DNA of 32,125 bases from a virus. The notes under the pieces were generated by a model, which ran no database searches, had not been told where the DNA came from, and was given only the letters and a program-made list of their open reading frames with translations. The stretch lies in the IMG/VR virus record IMGVR_UViG_3300050117_000002, positions 1 to 32,125 of that record; one strand, written 5' to 3'. How positions within the stretch are numbered: the stretch's first letter is position 1; every line of letters begins with the position of its first letter. Below are positions 8,382 to 25,668 of the stretch, piece after piece. Made by a program: the position numbers and the translations under genes.

Positions 8382-9344
8382 ATGACTGACCTGCAAACTC
8401 AGGTTTACGTCCAGCCCTCCCCGGCTGTAGAAGGTGACTTTGCCAGCGCCAATCCTCGGTTCTCGGTATTGTCCGGACCGTTCGCGCTTCAAGCGGGAGT
8501 GTCGGGCATCACCATCGCCCGGTTCGTGTGGTGGCAACCGACGCCGCTCGACCCCAACGAAGCACCCAGAGTCGTCAACAACTACGGCGCCGGTCCGGTT
8601 ACTGGTTTCGTGTCCCGTCGCATGGGTGCGGCACTGATTCAGACCTACCTGCAGTCCAACTCCATGCTGATCCCTGCCGGGTTCCCGGTTACGGTGATGA
8701 ATGGCGGCGACTTCTGGGTCCGCAACTACGGTGCGGGACAGGCGCTCCTTGGACAGAAGTGTTACGCCGACCTGCTCACTGGCAAGCCAAGCTTTGCAGC
8801 GACGGCATCCCCGTCGACTTCAAGCTTCACCGGCGTTATCGCAGCCGAAACCTCCAGCGTCACCGGCTCGATAACCGACAACATCCTGACGGTCAGCGCA
8901 GTCAGTTCTGGCACGCTCTACGCAGGAACGACCATTAGCGGCACCTACGTTGCAACCGGCACGCAGATCAACTCGCAGCTCACACCGTTGCTGGCCGGAG
9001 AGGCGTTGGGGGGCATTGGCCGTTACTACGTGTCGATTGGCGAACAGATTGTCGCGTCCACGACCATCAGCGGCACTTACGGGCAACTTACGGTGTCGGC
9101 ACTGACTGGTAGTGTCGTTATTGGCGGTTTGCTAGGCGGCGGCAGTTACACCGGCCCGGCAGGCGTCTACATCACTGCGGGTATCAGTGGCACAGGCGGG
9201 ACTGGCACCTATGTCGTGAGTAACAACACGGCGGTTGGTTCCGAAGCCATGACGGCAACTACCAATGTGGAGACCAAGTGGATCGCCATGTCGTCCTGCG
9301 CCAACAACGAACTCATCAAAATATCAGATCATCCTCTTGGTTGA
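8382..9344 (+). CDS. Structural cement protein (Gp24-like) with inserted beta repeats
   Basis: The N-terminal ~145 residues match the phage cement/decoration family: TQVYVQPSPAVEGDFASANP, VSGITIARFVWW, a GPVTGFVSRRMGAALIQTYL helix, then IPAGFPVTVMNGGDFWVRN and GQKCYADLLTGKPSF. These proteins bind the capsid exterior and stabilise it. From residue 149 to about 294 two copies of a Gly/Ser/Thr-rich beta module have been added (SGTLYAGTTISG to YYVSIGEQIVAS, and ALTGSVVIGG to GTGGTGTYVVSNNTAVGSEA). The closing residues ETKWIAMSSCANNELIKIS look like the family's own C-terminus, so the modules sit inside the protein. GAAAGG precedes the ATG. Confidence 0.78.
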   Translation: MTDLQTQVYVQPSPAVEGDFASANPRFSVLSGPFALQAGVSGITIARFVWWQPTPLDPNEAPRVVNNYGAGPVTGFVSRRMGAALIQTYLQSNSMLIPAGFPVTVMNGGDFWVRNYGAGQALLGQKCYADLLTGKPSFAATASPSTSSFTGVIAAETSSVTGSITDNILTVSAVSSGTLYAGTTISGTYVATGTQINSQLTPLLAGEALGGIGRYYVSIGEQIVASTTISGTYGQLTVSALTGSVVIGGLLGGGSYTGPAGVYITAGISGTGGTGTYVVSNNTAVGSEAMTATTNVETKWIAMSSCANNELIKISDHPLG

Positions 9345-15892: not shown

Positions 15893-17562
15893 GACGACTG
15901 TTTCTGTCCGCGTTATTCTGTTTGTCCATAGGCTTGCCCGCGCTCGCGCAACCGGTTTTGTCGGGCGCTCCGGCAGCTCCGGTCGGGCCAGCCGTGGTCT
16001 GTCCGACGTGTTACATGCCGTTGCCGGCATCGACCAGCTCTGGCGCGACGGCGCAACTTCTTCCTGCGTCTGCCCCGCCTTACGACGCACTGACTATTCA
16101 AAATAATGGATCACAGGACGCCTGTTTCTTTGTTGGCGCGTCCAATGTGGCGGTTAACTGGACGGAAGGCGTTTGCTCCAATTGGGTAGTCAGGGCTGGA
16201 CGTGGTTACACCATTTCTCTTTCTGGACTGGCGGGAAGTTATATTGCCGCCGCAACCCAGAGCAGTACGACTACACTCGATCTCTATCAGGCGAATGCCG
16301 CCATTCTGTTGACCGCTGCTGCGGGCGGTTCGAGTGGCGGTGGGGGTGGTACTTCATCCGCATTCGGGGCGGCGTTCCCGACTAACGGCACGGCTGCCGG
16401 ATTTTACGACACGTCCGGGAATATGGACTACGGGACTGTTGATAATAGTCATAACCAGAATGTGAATTGCGTAGTCGGTTGTAGCGGGGCAAGCAATCCG
16501 TCGGTCGGAGCGAACGGAAGTTCCGCCCCCGCTTCGTCGACTGCTCTTGGTTTTCAGAATGGTTCCGGCAATCTGTTGCAGGTCGCCCCTGGCAATCCTT
16601 TGCCTGCGACAGACGCGGCAGCAGAGAGTTCTCTTTCTTCGATAAATAGTAGCAACACGACGATTGCGTCGAATACAGGGGCCATATCGTCCAGCTCCGG
16701 TTCGACGGCGACCAGCGTTGAAAGCATCGCCAACATAATTGCGAATGCCGGAGTCACGCCTACCAAGGCTGGAGCGATCCAAGGCATATCGGGAGGCGTC
16801 CCTGTCCCAATGACAGCCGCGACGCTTCCCCTTCCAACAGGCGCAGCGCAGGAATCAGGGGGTAATCTGGCCGGGATTGCTTCCAGCAACACGACAATTG
16901 CGAGCAACACCGGAAGCATAGCCACAAGTTCTTCTTCAACAGCAACTAACACGGGGAACACGGCTAGTAGTACGTCTTCGACGGCAACAAACACCAGTGG
17001 CATCAAAACAGATACGGACGCGATTGCCAACGCTGTCGCCAATCCCGGCTCCACATCTACTAAAGCTGCAAGTGTTCAGGGTTGCAACTCATGCACGCCT
17101 GTCACAACGATTGCCACTAGTACGTCATGGGCGTTCTCGGCAGCGCCCACTATGGCAACTAGCTCACATGCGACGAATTCCTGTCTTGGGGGACAATTCA
17201 CGATCAATGGTTACGCCGGACTATCAGATATTGAAGTCACGGACAAGGGAACCAATTTCAATGGAGCGTCCATAGGCGTTTATATCTCGACGTCTGCACT
17301 TGCGACGCCCTGCACAGATGGAGCGGCGTTCTCGCTCGCGGCGGGGGACATGACAAATATTCCGGCTGGATTGAAAGGGCTAGTGTTCATTCCAAACACG
17401 TCGGGGGGTTGGACTTCAATTTCAAATCAGGTCCGTTCCAATTTGGGTGTGTGGTTGACTGGTACTTACCCCACAACGCTTTACGTCAATGTGGTTCTTG
17501 GTAGTGGAGCTGTAACCCCCACAAGCGGCGAACTTTTGATACAAGGTAGTGGACCAGTCTAA
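15889..17562 (+). CDS. Fibre-like Ser/Thr/Asn-rich protein with signal peptide
   Basis: The ATG at 15889 (ATGA overlap) gives 557 residues starting MRRLFLSALFCLSIGLPALA, a Sec signal with cleavage near A-L-A. Residues 40-140 form a beta head domain with four cysteines, ending in a glycine linker (GGSSGGGGG), the same plan as the S74 fibre. The middle (about 200-400) is low complexity with repeated SSNTTIASNTGSI, SSSTATNTGN and TKAGAIQG/TKAASVQG units, probably an extended beta shaft. The last ~140 residues (from FSAAPTMATSSHATNSC) look like a globular beta tip ending in LYVNVVLGSGAVTP. Probably an adhesin-like appendage; receptor unknown. Confidence 0.72.
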   Translation: MRRLFLSALFCLSIGLPALAQPVLSGAPAAPVGPAVVCPTCYMPLPASTSSGATAQLLPASAPPYDALTIQNNGSQDACFFVGASNVAVNWTEGVCSNWVVRAGRGYTISLSGLAGSYIAAATQSSTTTLDLYQANAAILLTAAAGGSSGGGGGTSSAFGAAFPTNGTAAGFYDTSGNMDYGTVDNSHNQNVNCVVGCSGASNPSVGANGSSAPASSTALGFQNGSGNLLQVAPGNPLPATDAAAESSLSSINSSNTTIASNTGAISSSSGSTATSVESIANIIANAGVTPTKAGAIQGISGGVPVPMTAATLPLPTGAAQESGGNLAGIASSNTTIASNTGSIATSSSSTATNTGNTASSTSSTATNTSGIKTDTDAIANAVANPGSTSTKAASVQGCNSCTPVTTIATSTSWAFSAAPTMATSSHATNSCLGGQFTINGYAGLSDIEVTDKGTNFNGASIGVYISTSALATPCTDGAAFSLAAGDMTNIPAGLKGLVFIPNTSGGWTSISNQVRSNLGVWLTGTYPTTLYVNVVLGSGAVTPTSGELLIQGSGPV

Positions 17563-20135
17563 TGAAATGGATTGCGTCTGTACTGTTCAGTTTATGGGTG
17601 TCGTTTGCATTTGGCGCTACGCCAGCGCAACTAACGGCTCTTCAGCCTTACGATCCTGCCGTCACGGCAATCGAATATCAGATCGCGACGGGCTGCGGTC
17701 GTCCGGTCTCTGCATTTGAGGACAGCCAGTATTTCTACACCCGCAGCGTTTTCGACCGTTACGCAGTTTGGTCCGCGCTGGTATCGTTTCAGGACTGGAA
17801 CGCAGCCGACCTTTGCTCGTCGCTGATTGATTTCAAGAACCCGCAGCCGCCAGCGTACAACGCATCGTTCACTGGATCGCTTGTTCCAGTCGGAGGCCCG
17901 CGTGCAAATTCGACACTTACAGTCACGGCTGTATCATTCGGCATCATAGTTCCAACGCAAACAATATCATGGTCAGGAGGAACAGCATCCATTGGCAGCA
18001 ACGGAACAGGGCATGGCGGCGTAGGAACGTATATAGTTCTTGGCAACCACACCGTTTCGTCTACTTCAATGAACGCATCCCCATCACTCACTACAACAAG
18101 TTTGCTCCCTCTTGGGGGCATCACCCAGACCCCCTATCAGGGCATCAATGGGGACGCTGCGACCGGCGAACTCGAAGGGGGCTACTGGACCGACATTCAG
18201 GGCATAGGTCAGGACAACGTAGGTGTCTCGATCTGGAGTGCGGCGCCATCGGGGTCCGATAACGGCATTCTGGGCATCACCGGGAAAGTCGATGCGCTTG
18301 GACTCGAGACGGCAGGCCCCACCAAATCGGTCGACCGGCTTCACAGCAGCAATAATCCCGGACCCGGCACTACAACCGTTGGCGGCCTTACTGCGTGGGA
18401 TACTGCATCACCATCCACCTCCACGGTGCAAGTATACTACAATGGCGTTCCAAAGGTTACGCAGACCCGGACCAGCGCGTTCCCCACCCCGCCCGATAAC
18501 TACGCATTCATTGGAGGAATAGGGTCAGGATCGCCGGCTACGTATTCCAGCGATCTTGATGTTTTCGCTACCATCGAGCCGTCCGAATCCGCCGCATGGT
18601 ATGCGAACGAGTTTAAGGCGCTTCTGATAAGCGGCCAGCGTACCGGCGCTACAAGCGTGCAGCCGGTCGGCCCGGTCTGGGCTAATGGTTGCCCCGGCTC
18701 GCTAGGCTGCAACGGCTTCACGCAAGGTCAGATCGCGAGCACCAGCCCGGCGAACCTGATTCTTGCCAATAACAAAGCTCCGCCGGTTCAGAACAGCGAT
18801 CCCAATTATCAATGGTATCCAGTATCGACTCCATGGGCGGGCGCTTTGCAATGCGCGCCCGGCTCTACCACATGGACGCCACCTACGATTGGATTTTCAA
18901 ACGCTTACAACATTTCGCATGGCGGATGCATCGTCCTGAAATGGACCAATCGCTGTAACACGGTTGCGTGCGGCAGCGGCCAATGGAACCAGCTTGAGAT
19001 CAGCCCGACCTGTACGCTTGCGGCGTGCGCGGGTATACCAATACGCCTCGGGTATTCCACCCCGGCCACCGCGCATGCATCCAATCAGGCTGATCTCGAT
19101 TGGAGCACTAACCCAAACAGCGCGAACCCGGCGGGGTCAAACTGCGGGACAGGAGCCTATACCGGTTACACGTCATACACGACGGCTGCGGGAATCCCGT
19201 CCGGTGATGTCTACGGATACACCGCATTCATAACGGCGTTCAATGCGGGTTCGATCCCGTATTTCCAAACCAGCGGCCACGCGGGCAGCTTCGTTGTTCC
19301 GCAGGTAGCAATATCAAGCGGCGCGATCTCGGGGACTACGCTGACGGTTTCGGGCGCAGTCACAGGCACGATTGCGGTAGGCCAGAGCGTCACCGACCCG
19401 ACGCAGCTTGTGGAGGCTGGAACAACCATCACCGCCTTGGGCTCGGGAACGGGTGGCGATGGCACCTACACGGTTTCAAACTCGCAGACGGTATCTGCGG
19501 AGGCAATGAACGCCTCGCCATGGAACATTGTGGTTCTTGATCGCGCGCCTGCTTGCTCAATCCAGACAAGTCTCGTTACGCTGGCTTTTTTGCTGGACTA
19601 CGAGCCCGCTGATCTGGGGGGAATCCCGGCGAACAATTCCGTCGCCGTAGCCCATGTTACCAGTCTAGCCTCCATCGTTGGCGCTAACGGCTATACGCTC
19701 GGCCTCGATATCGACAGCCTGTACGGCATCAACACATTCAAGAGCAATATCAACTCCACAACGCTCCCGTCGATATTTGCGATATCGAACGTGTCCTACG
19801 TCACGTTGGCTATTGACGCCACGACATCAAACACCGTCGCCAAGCAGGTGACAGACGGCCTGACGACCATGAACGGCGGGACGCCCTGCACGCTTTCGCC
19901 TGCCAACTGCACAGCGCTCCTGCCGCATGTCGGCATGAAGATGCTGCTACCGACGCTCACCGCCGCGCAATGGTCGCAGATGAACGGGCAACTCGGCACT
20001 TGGGGCATCAACGAGCTTGAGGTCTATCCTTCGCAGAACCAGCTCGGCGGCGAGAATTGTGCTGGATCAGGCGTCTATGTGCTCAACCCGCAGAAGTGGG
20101 GCTACGGCATAGGCATTCCGACAGGGCCTTGTTAG
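17562..20135 (+). CDS. Large exported fibre-like protein with lectin-like and barrel-like regions
   Basis: Start overlaps the previous stop as TAATG. Residues 1-19 (MKWIASVLFSLWVSFAFGA) are a Sec-type signal. Residues 103-172 and about 585-653 are two copies of the window's recurring beta module (ending GVGTYIVLGNHTVSSTSM and GDGTYTVSNSQTVSAEAM). Residues 274-366 look like a concanavalin/laminin-G jelly roll (VQVYYNGVPKVTQTRT, NYAFIGGIGSG). Residues 655-857 alternate strands and helices (FLLDYEPADL, TLGLDIDSLYG, YVTLAIDATTSN, VGMKMLLP, INELEVYPS), suggesting a TIM-barrel hydrolase; Asp679/Glu681 and Asp716/Asp718 are acidic strand ends that could be catalytic. A role in binding and cutting a surface polysaccharide is inference. 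The start is coupled and no internal start looks better. Confidence 0.66.
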   Translation: MKWIASVLFSLWVSFAFGATPAQLTALQPYDPAVTAIEYQIATGCGRPVSAFEDSQYFYTRSVFDRYAVWSALVSFQDWNAADLCSSLIDFKNPQPPAYNASFTGSLVPVGGPRANSTLTVTAVSFGIIVPTQTISWSGGTASIGSNGTGHGGVGTYIVLGNHTVSSTSMNASPSLTTTSLLPLGGITQTPYQGINGDAATGELEGGYWTDIQGIGQDNVGVSIWSAAPSGSDNGILGITGKVDALGLETAGPTKSVDRLHSSNNPGPGTTTVGGLTAWDTASPSTSTVQVYYNGVPKVTQTRTSAFPTPPDNYAFIGGIGSGSPATYSSDLDVFATIEPSESAAWYANEFKALLISGQRTGATSVQPVGPVWANGCPGSLGCNGFTQGQIASTSPANLILANNKAPPVQNSDPNYQWYPVSTPWAGALQCAPGSTTWTPPTIGFSNAYNISHGGCIVLKWTNRCNTVACGSGQWNQLEISPTCTLAACAGIPIRLGYSTPATAHASNQADLDWSTNPNSANPAGSNCGTGAYTGYTSYTTAAGIPSGDVYGYTAFITAFNAGSIPYFQTSGHAGSFVVPQVAISSGAISGTTLTVSGAVTGTIAVGQSVTDPTQLVEAGTTITALGSGTGGDGTYTVSNSQTVSAEAMNASPWNIVVLDRAPACSIQTSLVTLAFLLDYEPADLGGIPANNSVAVAHVTSLASIVGANGYTLGLDIDSLYGINTFKSNINSTTLPSIFAISNVSYVTLAIDATTSNTVAKQVTDGLTTMNGGTPCTLSPANCTALLPHVGMKMLLPTLTAAQWSQMNGQLGTWGINELEVYPSQNQLGGENCAGSGVYVLNPQKWGYGIGIPTGPC

Positions 20136-20855: not shown

Positions 20856-22892
20856 ATGAGTATCCCGCTTTCAGATATTGTCAGCGTAACCCCTTCCGTA
20901 CTGCCCGCAGGCGGCAATGCGCTCGACCTGATCGGGCTCGCGCTTTCGCCTTCCACACGCACGCCGATCAACGGGACGGACAATCCTGTTGTGCTACAAT
21001 TCGACAGTGCGATTGCAGTGGGAGACTATTACGGTCTTAACTCGGAAGAGTATGCGTGGGCGTCCGTCTACTTCAATGGTATTTTGGGTGCGACCACACT
21101 CCCAGGCTCGCTTCTGATAGCACAGTATAACCAGACCGCAGTAGGCGCTTTTCTGCGTGGTGGTAATGTGTCGGGTAATCTCGCCATATTACAAGCCGTG
21201 ACTTCCGGAAATCTGGAAGTCGTTGTTGACGGATTTTCTTGGCATAGTAATTCCATTAATCTTAGTTCTGATAACAAGTTCTCGGCAATGGCCGCGACGA
21301 TCCAGTCCGATCTTGCCCTTCCGGGGGCTGCATCATTCACGGCGTCCATTGAGCCGGGATTCGGCAACATTTGCACGATGATAGTTACGGCGGTCGCCTC
21401 TGGCACGCTGGCAATTGGGCAGGTAATAGCAGGAGCAGGAGTTCCTGTTGGAACTTATATTTACGCATACGAAACTAGTTCGGGTGGGACTGGTAATTAT
21501 GCCGTCATCACAGTTGCAAATACCACGGTCAATAGCGAGGCCATGACGGGTTCTGCTGCGGATGTATCTTTCACGGCGTCGATTGCCAACAATGGCACCA
21601 TGACTGTGACTGCAATAGGGTCTGGCACAATCCAGCCCGGAATGTTGTTGGTGGGAACAAACGTCATGGCTGGAACCGGGGTTGAGTCATACGGAACTGG
21701 TGGTACGACTGGTACGGGTGGAACTGGAACATACAAAGTTAGCATCGGTCAGGTAGTCGGCTCCGAATCCATGACCGGCGCTCCTGCACCAATCACCGTC
21801 ACTTATGATTTCACGTCCGGAGGATTTGTGGTTGCTTCCGGGATTGTTGGGCAGGCTTCCAGCATTCAATTTGCAACGCGGTTGTTAGCCGCCAACATGC
21901 TTCTGACACAGGCCACAGGAGCTGTCACGTCGCAAGGGGCGGACGCCGCCGACCCTAATGGCTACATGAATGGTGTCATTGCCGAAACAACCAATTGGTT
22001 TAGCTTTACGACGCTATTCGATCCGGACAATGCAAACGGCGCTACCAGCACATTCGCGAATAAGGAACTCTTCTCAATCTGGACTAACAACCAGAACAAC
22101 CGTTACGCCTATGTCGCTATCGATTCGGATATCGCGCCGACACTGATCGTACCTTGCACAACCTGCTTCGGATATTATTTGCAACAGAACAACACGTCCG
22201 GAACAGTGCCAATCTGGTCCGGGGCCTACGATCTCTCCAAATCCGCATTGGCTTGCGCCTACTTCGCTTCGCTCAATTTCGAGCAGACGAACGGCCGGGC
22301 CAATCTGGCATTCGCCAGTCAGTCTGGGCTGACGCCTGATGTCACCAGCCAAACGGTCAGAGATAATCTTGGCGGCAATCTGTTGTCCGGCGCTCCCGGA
22401 AACGGTTACAATTGCTACGGACTATACGCCAACGCCAAGCAGACATTCCAGTTTATGTATCCGGGGCTGATCTCCGGAGAGTTCGACTGGTGTGATACCT
22501 ATGCCGATCAGGTGTGGATGAACACCAACTTCCAGCTCGACCTGTTTGTGCTCCTCACAACTATCAAGAGCATTCCATACAACGCCAAAGGCAATGGCTT
22601 TATCCGTTCGGCTTTGGGGAGCACAATTTCGGAAGCTGTCAATTACGGCGCAATCCAGACCGGCGTCACGCTTTCGGACGAACAGATTGCCGACGTGAAC
22701 AATCAGGTGCAATCCGCCAGCGGGCAGACCGTCGACCTCACCAACATCCTGTTCTCGCAAGGCTGGTACTTGTATATCGGAGTAACGCCTCCTGCCGTTC
22801 GAGCGGCGCGGGGCACGCCGCCTTGCACGTTCTGGTGGGTCGACGGCGGGTCCGTGCAGGCGTTGAACCTCGCCAGCGTCACAATTCAGTAA
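20856..22892 (+). CDS. Tail sheath protein, DUF3383 type, with two inserted beta modules
   Basis: AAGGAGAA precedes the ATG. Residues 1-155 (LSDIVSVTPSVLPAGGNALD, FDSAIAVGDYYGLNSEEYAW, GNLEVVVDGFSW) and 310-678 (TNWFSFTTLF, NRYAYVAIDSD, WSGAYDLSKSALACAYFASL, CYGLYANAKQTFQFMYPG, DWCDTYADQVWMNTNFQLDL, ALGSTISEAVNYGAIQTG, GWYLYIGVTPP) match the DUF3383 family, the contractile sheath of one myovirus group. Residues 161-309 are two tandem copies of the recurring beta module, each beginning SFTASI and ending SEAMTGS or SESMTGA. They sit between a helix (FSAMAATIQSDL) and the strand ITVTYDFTSGGF, so a loop facing outward is the probable site. The insert explains the 678-residue length. Confidence 0.87.
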   Translation: MSIPLSDIVSVTPSVLPAGGNALDLIGLALSPSTRTPINGTDNPVVLQFDSAIAVGDYYGLNSEEYAWASVYFNGILGATTLPGSLLIAQYNQTAVGAFLRGGNVSGNLAILQAVTSGNLEVVVDGFSWHSNSINLSSDNKFSAMAATIQSDLALPGAASFTASIEPGFGNICTMIVTAVASGTLAIGQVIAGAGVPVGTYIYAYETSSGGTGNYAVITVANTTVNSEAMTGSAADVSFTASIANNGTMTVTAIGSGTIQPGMLLVGTNVMAGTGVESYGTGGTTGTGGTGTYKVSIGQVVGSESMTGAPAPITVTYDFTSGGFVVASGIVGQASSIQFATRLLAANMLLTQATGAVTSQGADAADPNGYMNGVIAETTNWFSFTTLFDPDNANGATSTFANKELFSIWTNNQNNRYAYVAIDSDIAPTLIVPCTTCFGYYLQQNNTSGTVPIWSGAYDLSKSALACAYFASLNFEQTNGRANLAFASQSGLTPDVTSQTVRDNLGGNLLSGAPGNGYNCYGLYANAKQTFQFMYPGLISGEFDWCDTYADQVWMNTNFQLDLFVLLTTIKSIPYNAKGNGFIRSALGSTISEAVNYGAIQTGVTLSDEQIADVNNQVQSASGQTVDLTNILFSQGWYLYIGVTPPAVRAARGTPPCTFWWVDGGSVQALNLASVTIQ

Positions 22893-22905: not shown

Positions 22906-23340
22906 ATGGCCCGCTCACTGACCGCAGCCAACACGGTCATAACCTTTACGATTCCGGACCTGTTCCCTGTCGGGTTTCAGCTTCAGGGTTTTGCAGCCGA
23001 CGACATATTCGACACCGACGAGATCGACTCGGCGGAAGTCAGCATGGGTGTTGACGGCATATTGTCGGCCGGTTTCGTGTTCGTGCCGATCCGTCAACGC
23101 TACAACCTTCAGGCCAACAGCTTGTCCATCTCGTACTTTGACTCATGGTGGCAGGCGTCTAAGGCAGCGGTGGACGCATTCCCGGCAACGGCGGATTTCG
23201 CCTTCCCCGGTCTCGGAGCGACTTACACGATGCTCAACGGTTATCTGACCGGCTACCCACCCGTTCCCAATGCCGGAAAGATCGTCAAGCCCCGGCGTTT
23301 CACGGTCACTTGGAACGATAGCAATTCGATGCCCATTTAA
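22906..23340 (+). CDS. Tail tube protein
   Basis: AAGGAGAA precedes the ATG, 13 bases after the sheath stop. The 144-residue sequence has FPVGFQLQGFAADDIFDTDE, VSMGVDGILSAGFVFVP, IRQRYNLQANSLSISYFDSW and a C-terminal YTMLNGYLTGYPPVPNAGKI with PRRFTVTWN. This succession is what I recognise from the tube protein that follows DUF3383 sheath genes. It stacks as rings to form the inner tail conduit. A large hairpin follows the gene, as also seen after the capsid gene. Confidence 0.85.
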   Translation: MARSLTAANTVITFTIPDLFPVGFQLQGFAADDIFDTDEIDSAEVSMGVDGILSAGFVFVPIRQRYNLQANSLSISYFDSWWQASKAAVDAFPATADFAFPGLGATYTMLNGYLTGYPPVPNAGKIVKPRRFTVTWNDSNSMPI

Positions 23341-23448: not shown

Positions 23449-23964
23449 ATGGCACGAAGAACCAAAGAAATCGCAATCGACGACCCCAAGAGCCGGGATC
23501 ACGGAAAGGTATTCGTCCTGACCGAGAAACCGGCTCTCGATGCAGAGCGTTGGGCAAAACGGGCCTTGGCTGCGGTCGGTCGCACCAACGCCATGACCGG
23601 CGTCGATCCTGCCGAACTGGAGGGATTGGGTTTGATAGGCGTGGCTGCGGTCGGCGTCCGGGCGCTTGCCACGCTTCAGGACGAAGATTCCGAACGGCTG
23701 ATGGCTGAAATGATGGAGTGTGTCCAGATCAGGCCAAACTCCAAAGCGCCGCAAGTAATACGTCCCTTGATGGAGAAACCGGACGAAACCGGGACCTACG
23801 ATATCGAGGACATAAAAACCATATGGCAGCTCCGGAACGAGGTGCTTGAACTGCATCTGGGTTTTTCGCTTCCCGACGTGTTCTCCAAATTGAAGACATC
23901 GACATCGAACGCGCCGGGGAACTCATCGACTACGCAAACGTCCCCGCCATCATCGGAGCCGTAA
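23449..23964 (+). CDS. Tail assembly chaperone, short form (lambda gpG-like role)
   Basis: GGAGGAACC precedes the ATG. The 171-residue product has VFVLTEKPALDAERWAKRAL, then a helical part GLGLIGVAAVGVRALATLQD, MAEMMECVQI and IWQLRNEVLELHLGFSLPDVF. Its position between tube and tape measure, its size, and a slippery GGGTTTT near the 3' end all match tail assembly chaperones, which bind the tape measure and are absent from the mature virion. After the slip site the zero frame encodes a Ser/Thr/Pro-rich, apparently unstructured tail (TSTSNAPGNSSTTQTS), as expected when the structured extension lies in the other frame. Confidence 0.82.
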   Translation: MARRTKEIAIDDPKSRDHGKVFVLTEKPALDAERWAKRALAAVGRTNAMTGVDPAELEGLGLIGVAAVGVRALATLQDEDSERLMAEMMECVQIRPNSKAPQVIRPLMEKPDETGTYDIEDIKTIWQLRNEVLELHLGFSLPDVFSKLKTSTSNAPGNSSTTQTSPPSSEP

Positions 23965-24098
23965 TCAATGCGAAGCTGGCGAGCATGACTGAGTTGGGCA
24001 CGACGCTTGGCGCTATCGACCTGTACGATCTTTATGAGATCGTGGTGGTCAACGCATACAATGAGTACGTCCTGAATAAACGAGACGAAGATGGCTAG
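23449..24098 (+). CDS. Tail assembly chaperone, long form made by -1 frameshift (gpGT-like)
   Basis: Codons GGT TTT at 23860-23865, preceded by G, form the canonical slip heptamer G GGT TTT (23859-23865). A -1 slip continues at TTC 23865-23867 and stays open to TAG 24096-24098, adding 77 residues (ASRRVLQIEDIDIERAGELI, VPAIIGAVINAKLASMTELG, IDLYDLYEIVVVNAYNEYVL). This extension is well structured, has no plausible start of its own near the junction, and would otherwise leave a 126-base gap before the tape measure. The joined product (23449-23865, 23865-24098) is 216 residues and overlaps the tape measure start by eight bases. Lambda and many other tailed phages use the same scheme to set the ratio of the two chaperones. 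Evidence is direct for the motif and frame; use in vivo is inference. Confidence 0.82.
23859..23865 (+). promoter_or_regulatory. Programmed -1 ribosomal frameshift site (GGGTTTT)
   Basis: The heptamer fits X XXY YYZ with the zero-frame codons GGT and TTT; both tRNAs can re-pair after slipping back one base (GGG and TTT). It is followed by one more T. No strong downstream stem was identified by eye, and no upstream Shine-Dalgarno-like stimulator was obvious. Confidence 0.8.
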
Positions 24099-25668
24099 TG
24101 CAACGGTACTTGACAGCCTTGTGCTAGAAATCGGGCTCGATCCATCAAAACTGGTCAAGGGCTCCAAGGAAACGCAGGAGGCGTGGAAGAAGCTTCAGGA
24201 TGGATTCAAGAAAGGCTTCAAGGAAGGGACGGAGGAAGCCAACAAGTTCGAGATCGCAATCGAGAAGACCAAGAACCAAGTCCTCTCGCTGCTTGCGGCC
24301 TATCTGAGTTTCGAGGCGATCAAGGGCTTTGTGATAAATCTCACGCAGGCGGGCACGACCCTTGAGCGATTGAATGTTTTGACTGGCGTCTCCAAACTCC
24401 GAATTGCCGAATGGCAGAACGTGATGAAAGAATGGGGCGGCACGGCGGAAGACGCTAACGCCATGTTCGGCGGGCTTGCCAACAACATCCAACAATTTTT
24501 CTCGACCGGGCAGCTCCCCAACTACGGCGTCTACCGGGTATTAGGCGTCACGCAATCGGTCGCGGAAGCGATCAACGCTTTACGGCATGGACAAAACCCT
24601 GACTACGAAAAGATCATTATGCAGGGTGCGGAAGCGATCCATCAGAATCCCACCATGGGCCTGTATTACGGGCAACAGCTCGGGTTCACGCCGCAGATGA
24701 TCCAGCACGCAATCACGGAAGGGGGTGCCGGGATCAAGAGCGATCTTGACGCGCAGAAAGGGAATGCAGAGGCTGCGGCTAAAGCGGCGGGAGAGGAAAC
24801 GAAATTAACAAAGGCATTGGCTGACTTGAATAATTCGTTCACTGCGCTTGGGCATACGCTGCTTATCAGCATCATTCCTCAGATTAAGGCTCTCACAGCG
24901 TTTCTTGACAGAATCGCAGGGGATATTCCAAAGACGTTGAAAGGCGGGGCAGCAGTAGTAAAAGATGTTGTTACTGGTAATCTTGCTGGTGCATTTGCGG
25001 GGGAAGGAGGCGCGGGGGATTTCTGGAGTGGTCTGTGGGACATCAACAAGAAAGCCGGTGATTTCATACTGGATACGTTGACTGGTGCTTATTCGGATGT
25101 AACAGCTCCCCAAAAGCAATCGGCACAGTCCACAAAAACACCTCCGGCCAAAATTGGTTCAGTGTCCACGGTAGACGGAATGTTGAACTTAATCCGTCAG
25201 TTGGAACGTTCTGGCGATCAGCAGGTATCGCCTGCCGGGGCAATCGGCGCTTTCCAGATCATGCCAGCGACCGGCGCGCATTATGGCGCGACTAGGGAAC
25301 AGCTATTCGATCCTGCCGTGAATGAGCGGGTGGCTCGCGCCTACGTGACGGACTTGATGAAGAAGTACGGAAATTTGAGAGACGAACTTATTGACTATAA
25401 TGCAGGCGCTCCAAAACTTCAACGATTTAAGGCGACTGGTTATCTGAATAACGAAACACTCAAGTATCTTCAGTATGCCATGCAATTGTTGAAAAGCGGG
25501 GGGAAGATGGCAAGTAACACAACAGTCAACCATCATACGACTACTGTTCGGACTGGTGATATTTATGTGAGTACCAAATCCACGGACAGCAAGACTATTG
25601 CGCATGATTTAAAACGAGCACTAGACCGCACCGCGTTCGCCAATCAGGCGCAGACAGGACCTCTCTGA
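24091..25668 (+). CDS. Tape measure protein with C-terminal lytic transglycosylase (SLT) domain
   Basis: The ATG lies in the last codons of the long chaperone form. The N-terminal part is helical and charged (KETQEAWKKLQDGFKKGF, then ANKFEIAIEKTKNQVLSLLA), followed by Ala/Gln-rich helices, as in tape measure proteins that fix tail length. Residues 362-460 are an SLT domain: Glu372 in LIRQLERSG is the candidate catalytic acid, followed by SPAGAIGAFQIMPATG, YVTDLMKKYG, and IDYNAGAPKLQRF. It would open peptidoglycan during DNA entry. At 525 residues the protein is short for a tape measure, implying a short tail if the usual proportionality holds. A Ser/Thr/His-rich stretch (NTTVNHHTTTVRTGDIYVST) precedes the C-terminus. 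Confidence 0.87.
   Translation: MASATVLDSLVLEIGLDPSKLVKGSKETQEAWKKLQDGFKKGFKEGTEEANKFEIAIEKTKNQVLSLLAAYLSFEAIKGFVINLTQAGTTLERLNVLTGVSKLRIAEWQNVMKEWGGTAEDANAMFGGLANNIQQFFSTGQLPNYGVYRVLGVTQSVAEAINALRHGQNPDYEKIIMQGAEAIHQNPTMGLYYGQQLGFTPQMIQHAITEGGAGIKSDLDAQKGNAEAAAKAAGEETKLTKALADLNNSFTALGHTLLISIIPQIKALTAFLDRIAGDIPKTLKGGAAVVKDVVTGNLAGAFAGEGGAGDFWSGLWDINKKAGDFILDTLTGAYSDVTAPQKQSAQSTKTPPAKIGSVSTVDGMLNLIRQLERSGDQQVSPAGAIGAFQIMPATGAHYGATREQLFDPAVNERVARAYVTDLMKKYGNLRDELIDYNAGAPKLQRFKATGYLNNETLKYLQYAMQLLKSGGKMASNTTVNHHTTTVRTGDIYVSTKSTDSKTIAHDLKRALDRTAFANQAQTGPL

Follow-up and report, generated by a model that had tools for sequence, protein, structure and literature searches.

Genes and features of the tail module

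The window, meaning the whole stretch of DNA analysed, is a virus record of 32,125 bases. Profile matches within it give the gene order sheath, tube, chaperone and tape measure, which is a DUF3383/E217-like myovirus tail module, and the phage is contractile-tailed. The features discussed below all lie on the + strand:

20856..22892, + strand, tail sheath protein (DUF3383); PF11863, E 2e-94; phrog_205, tail sheath
22906..23340, + strand, virion structural protein, tail tube-like, of the E217 gp32 family; lies next upstream of the chaperone; PF22764, E 5e-22; phrog_1964
23449..23964, + strand, tail assembly chaperone, short (zero-frame) form, 171 aa; phrog_1932, E 8.6e-34
23839..23843, + strand, SD-like GAGGT, 15 nt upstream of the heptamer, a possible stimulator; its pairing is pronounced in relatives and mostly explained by Glu-Val codons
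23859..23865, + strand, slippery heptamer G GGT TTT, whose Ts and the next base form a run of five (T-run 23862-23866); in phase, T-run conserved
23865..24098, + strand, -1 frame C-terminal extension, 77 aa and TAG; phrog_3976, E 7.5e-16; AlphaFold2 pLDDT 86
24091..25668, + strand, tape measure protein with a C-terminal SLT transglycosylase domain; phrog_2013, E 1.1e-36; phrog_9570, tail length tape measure protein, E 2e-20; PF01464, SLT

At 525 aa the tape measure protein is short, and its SLT transglycosylase domain lies near the C-terminus, at residues 378-448. The sheath gene contains two copies of a Gly/Thr-rich module of about 70 aa (window 21333-21779), for which no Pfam family match was found. 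Stretches resembling this module also occur in the ORF at 17562-20135 (at 19374-19508), and there are weak matches in a cement/minor capsid ORF at 8382-9344 (at 8886-9257).

Two overlapping reading frames

The ORF at 23449-23964 encodes a protein of 171 aa, in which a conserved domain (residues 1-139) is followed by a low-complexity tail. It resembles the PHROG tail assembly chaperone family phrog_1932 over residues 1-141. With the Pfam family Phage_TAC_15 the window chaperone stays below the cut-off (E 0.023), and 18 of 64 relatives match it, the best at 3e-7. The chaperone part is modelled confidently by AlphaFold2 (pLDDT 89). Its top hit among solved structures is the HK97 tail assembly chaperone 2ob9, which is non-significant (E 0.44, TM 0.3); solved-structure and fold searches returned no significant match for either the chaperone domain or the extension. 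The zero frame ends in ...KTSTSNAPGNSSTTQTSPPSSEP, the low-complexity tail of which the earlier note had spoken, and the G+C content at codon positions 1/2/3 of this tail (0.38/0.66/0.72) is unlike that of the upstream chaperone (0.65/0.41/0.64).

The -1 frame is open from 23850 to 24098, and after a slip the coding part would run from 23865 to 24095 with TAG at 24096-24098. Translation gives 77 residues, as had been proposed, reading FASRRVLQIEDIDIERAGELIDYANVPAIIGAVINAKLASMTELGTTLGAIDLYDLYEIVVVNAYNEYVLNKRDEDG. The peptide resembles phrog_3976, a phage family of unknown function, its G+C at the three codon positions (0.62/0.31/0.66) resembles that of the upstream chaperone, and its AlphaFold2 model is confident; Pfam, solved-structure and fold searches gave it no structural or Pfam relative. 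The extension had also been said to close the gap to the tape measure gene, which can now be refined, as its stop codon overlaps the tape measure ATG (24091) by 8 nt. Joined at the site, the product would read ...LHL-GF-FASRR across the junction, and residues 1-139 plus the 77-aa extension would make a fusion of 216 aa.

At the junction, GGT TTT TCG comes after codon 137 (CTG), so that ctG GGT TTT tcg places G GGT TTT (23859-23865) in phase with the ORF, just as the earlier note had it. Upon a shift to -1, GGT would re-pair as GGG (a third base mismatch) and TTT as TTT, which agrees with the X XXY YYZ rule for dual-tRNA slippage. The layout is also of the G/GT type, in that the 3′ part of the first frame is shared with the second in -1 phase, the slippery site lying inside the overlap, and the chaperone lies between the tube-like gene (22906-23340) and the tape measure start at 24091. 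The other genes of the window, about 7,000 codons, hold 20 X XXY YYZ heptamers in phase. One of the 20 is likewise GGGTTTT; it lies at 22986-22992 in the tail tube-like gene, and the heptamer alone is therefore no evidence of frameshifting. A stretch of 77 stop-free codons alone has a chance of about 4%, so that the window by itself is no more than suggestive of a frameshift.

Conservation among relatives

Together, 17 phage records and loci from viral contigs and bacterial genomes gave 146 loci with both domains, which dereplication at 80% nucleotide identity reduced to 78, the window included. Single window proteins used as queries found nothing in IMG/VR or in bacterial genomes, and queries built from distant relatives failed because their alignments diverged too far; a closer alignment retrieved the loci. 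Most loci were found via the protein sequence of the extension, so that its presence among them is partly by construction, which is not the case for its frame or for the slippery site.

The earlier note had named conservation of the extension frame and of the heptamer in homologues as the check to make. The frame withstood it, as 145 of the 146 loci have the extension in frame -1 relative to the chaperone, Bcep781 being the sole exception. The site withstood it too: a slippery T-run is retained at the homologous codon under strong synonymous constraint, G GGT TTT in the strict sense being one form of the site, seen in 25 of the 78 loci. The codon homologous to the window TTT is TTT in 71/78 loci and is preceded by T in 71/71, and TTTTT is found in 68/78. 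A canonical X XXY YYZ heptamer, either in the same codon register or in the next one, is likewise present in 68 of the 78 and absent from 10. The choice among synonymous codons is strongly skewed at this position, with Gly always encoded by GGT (36/36, against a background of 23%), Asp by GAT (29/30, background 49%) and Phe by TTT (71/75, background 45%). The binomial p is below 1e-7 for each of the three, a value inflated by relatedness although the direction is clear. This codon bias at the T-run is a constraint on the nucleotides rather than on the protein, and the element common to the family is the U-run, T TTT T. The stop of the extension overlaps the next long ORF or lies within 15 nt of it in 71/74 loci, a compact operon layout.

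A few relatives differ at the site. Two enterobacterial phages, Erwinia phage RF1 (L015:1435-1450) and Yersinia phage P744 (L016:1441-1450), keep the -1 extension and carry TTC TTC, and no canonical slippery heptamer was found at the site in either; A AAG further on (GAA AAG / GCA AAG) might serve as a substitute slip site. In Vibrio phage V039C (L017:1432-1438) the T-run is replaced by another slippery sequence, A AAA AAG, at the homologous place.

Homology of both frames together with conservation of the site renders the case conclusive. We infer, with very little doubt, that the tail assembly chaperone gene of this DUF3383/E217-like contractile-tailed phage undergoes programmed -1 ribosomal frameshifting, as the earlier note had proposed for the chaperone extension; the frame relation in 145/146 loci, the T-run in 71/78, the position of the gene, the chaperone family, the codon skew at the site, the closeness of the extension's stop to the next gene and the in-frame extension beside a separate chaperone in Bcep781-type phages all fit.

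Alternative explanations

Could the extension instead be a small gene of its own, translated from its own start codon without any frameshift? It is annotated as a separate ORF in Aeromonas phage 56, Pantoea phage PA-1, Acinetobacter phages LZ35 and Acjo_20, and Pseudomonas phage Amjad_SA. Yet the -1 frame of the window offers no ATG, GTG or TTG before the conserved Asn, and its first ATG (23985) lies inside the conserved domain. The same part is devoid of ATG, GTG and TTG in 39/71 relatives and of ATG in 63/71, and just 7 relatives have a start behind an SD-like 4-mer. With no -1 frame start before the conserved part, separate initiation is unlikely, and a separate gene would also leave the synonymous constraint at the T-run unexplained, so that we consider this reading highly improbable. 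Another possibility is that the RNA polymerase rather than the ribosome slips at the T-run and makes fusion mRNAs, in keeping with the T-run being the conserved element in most relatives. Transcriptional slippage in bacteria normally requires longer runs, whereas the window has a run of just 5 T, and relatives mostly have 5-6. The fixed codon phase NNT TTT T and the invariant Gly GGT fit decoding and not polymerase slippage, and one relative carries A AAA AAG instead; polymerase slippage is thus about as improbable as separate initiation.

A break in a homopolymer is a classic sequencing error, and Bcep781-type phages have the extension in frame, which would suit one long ORF broken by a sequencing or assembly error or by decay into a pseudogene. 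But the same break at the same codon recurs in 145 loci from independent projects, finished phage genomes included, and this explanation, by far the least probable, is refuted by the relatives.

Proposed slippage and possible stimulators

With programmed ribosomal frameshifting as the preferred reading, the majority of ribosomes would read through to give the 171-aa short chaperone, and a minority would move back by one base at G GGU UUU U to give the 216-aa fusion, whose C-terminal 77-aa domain is predicted to be folded. Both tRNAs, Gly and Phe, may re-pair (to GGG and UUU), or slippage may involve only the Phe tRNA, on U UUU. In the window, tandem slippage at G GGU UUU is most likely; the protein made would not differ if the Phe-tRNA slipped by itself on U UUU U. 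Four relatives (L038, L041, L121 and L126) carry Asp GAT before TTT TCN with no canonical heptamer; as the tRNA neighbouring the TTT would be unable to re-pair there, only the Phe-tRNA could slip. The relative L141, with GAT TTT ACG, is similar and also has no canonical heptamer. We tentatively entertain, in place of the two-tRNA slip of the textbooks, a single Phe-tRNA slip on U UUU U as the mechanism of the whole family, a proposal that we hold to be possible but somewhat doubtful.

In the search for stimulators, no downstream RNA structure was found in the window (z -0.02), and relatives display a mild trend (mean z -1.0 against codon shuffles). Pairing of an SD-like element upstream of the site is pronounced in relatives. 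We do not claim GAGGT as a stimulator, because the conserved Glu-Val codons mostly explain the pairing (z -2.8 against synonymous shuffles), which is largely their by-product. Rfam gave no match.

Two-gene arrangement in Bcep781-type phages

In Bcep781 (Naesvirus) and its Xanthomonas relatives there is no shift between the two domains, and the long and short forms are two genes. The extension is found in frame at the C-terminal end of gp47, which is followed by gp46, a chaperone without extension. Profile comparison agrees with this, as gp46 matches the chaperone domain profile and gp47 ends in the homologous extension. The N-terminus of gp47 keeps a short chaperone-like piece, identical to the chaperone of the window at 12/23 positions. 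Each of the two genes has matches in 22 phage records, every one of which belongs to a Burkholderia or Xanthomonas phage. Two-gene loci of this type are L001:1135-2054, L148:1150-2434, L149:1201-2117 and L150:1153-2099. Unlike the window, Bcep781 has a further gene before the tape measure. The arrangement seems to replace the frameshift by two genes.

Relation to known systems

A -1 frameshift in tail assembly chaperone genes is known from gpG/gpGT of phage lambda (Xu, Hendrix and Duda 2004, as summarised in PMC5009743). There the short form attaches to the tape measure, which a rare long form connects to the tail tube protein (PMC5009743). By analogy, many short copies would coat the tape measure protein of the window phage, and the scarce long form would recruit tail-tube subunits to it. 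These roles, suggested by gene order, family and the lambda analogy, are inferred, as is the frequency of the slip; for an HK97-like chaperone cluster a frameshift of 7% was measured (PMC3711429). Lambda differs in being a siphovirus, whereas the window belongs to a myovirus with the slippery sequence G GGU UUU U and an extension that has no detectable similarity to a characterised T domain. A likeness is also found in Vandenendeviridae and Andersonviridae, where a 2025 paper reports a -1 frameshift at GTTTTT in the chaperone and the same annotation problem (PMC12846349). These too are myoviruses, in which the short form carries a slippery T-run at its 3′ end and the extension is publicly annotated as a separate hypothetical gene; they are other phage families, likened to the window here by site and layout. 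T4-like phages reportedly use another mechanism, to go by the title of Vladimirov et al. (2022) as cited in PMC12846349.

For Bordetella avium phages of the same group as the window, the chaperone has been described, with no frameshift of it (PMC10269795). In the open-licence literature we found no paper stating the shift for this phage group, which is weak evidence of absence. Among the 17 phage records examined, 0 join chaperone and extension. The class itself is known, both as the lambda G/GT type and from -1 sites published for other myoviruses, so the window adds a member and the underlying biology is textbook. ORF callers miss both the fusion product and its conserved domain of 77 aa. 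Recovering them gives a simple rule for re-annotating phages that carry phrog_1932 and phrog_3976, namely to join the two frames at the T-run. The two-gene layout of Bcep781 serves as a natural control, suggesting that both forms of the chaperone are needed.
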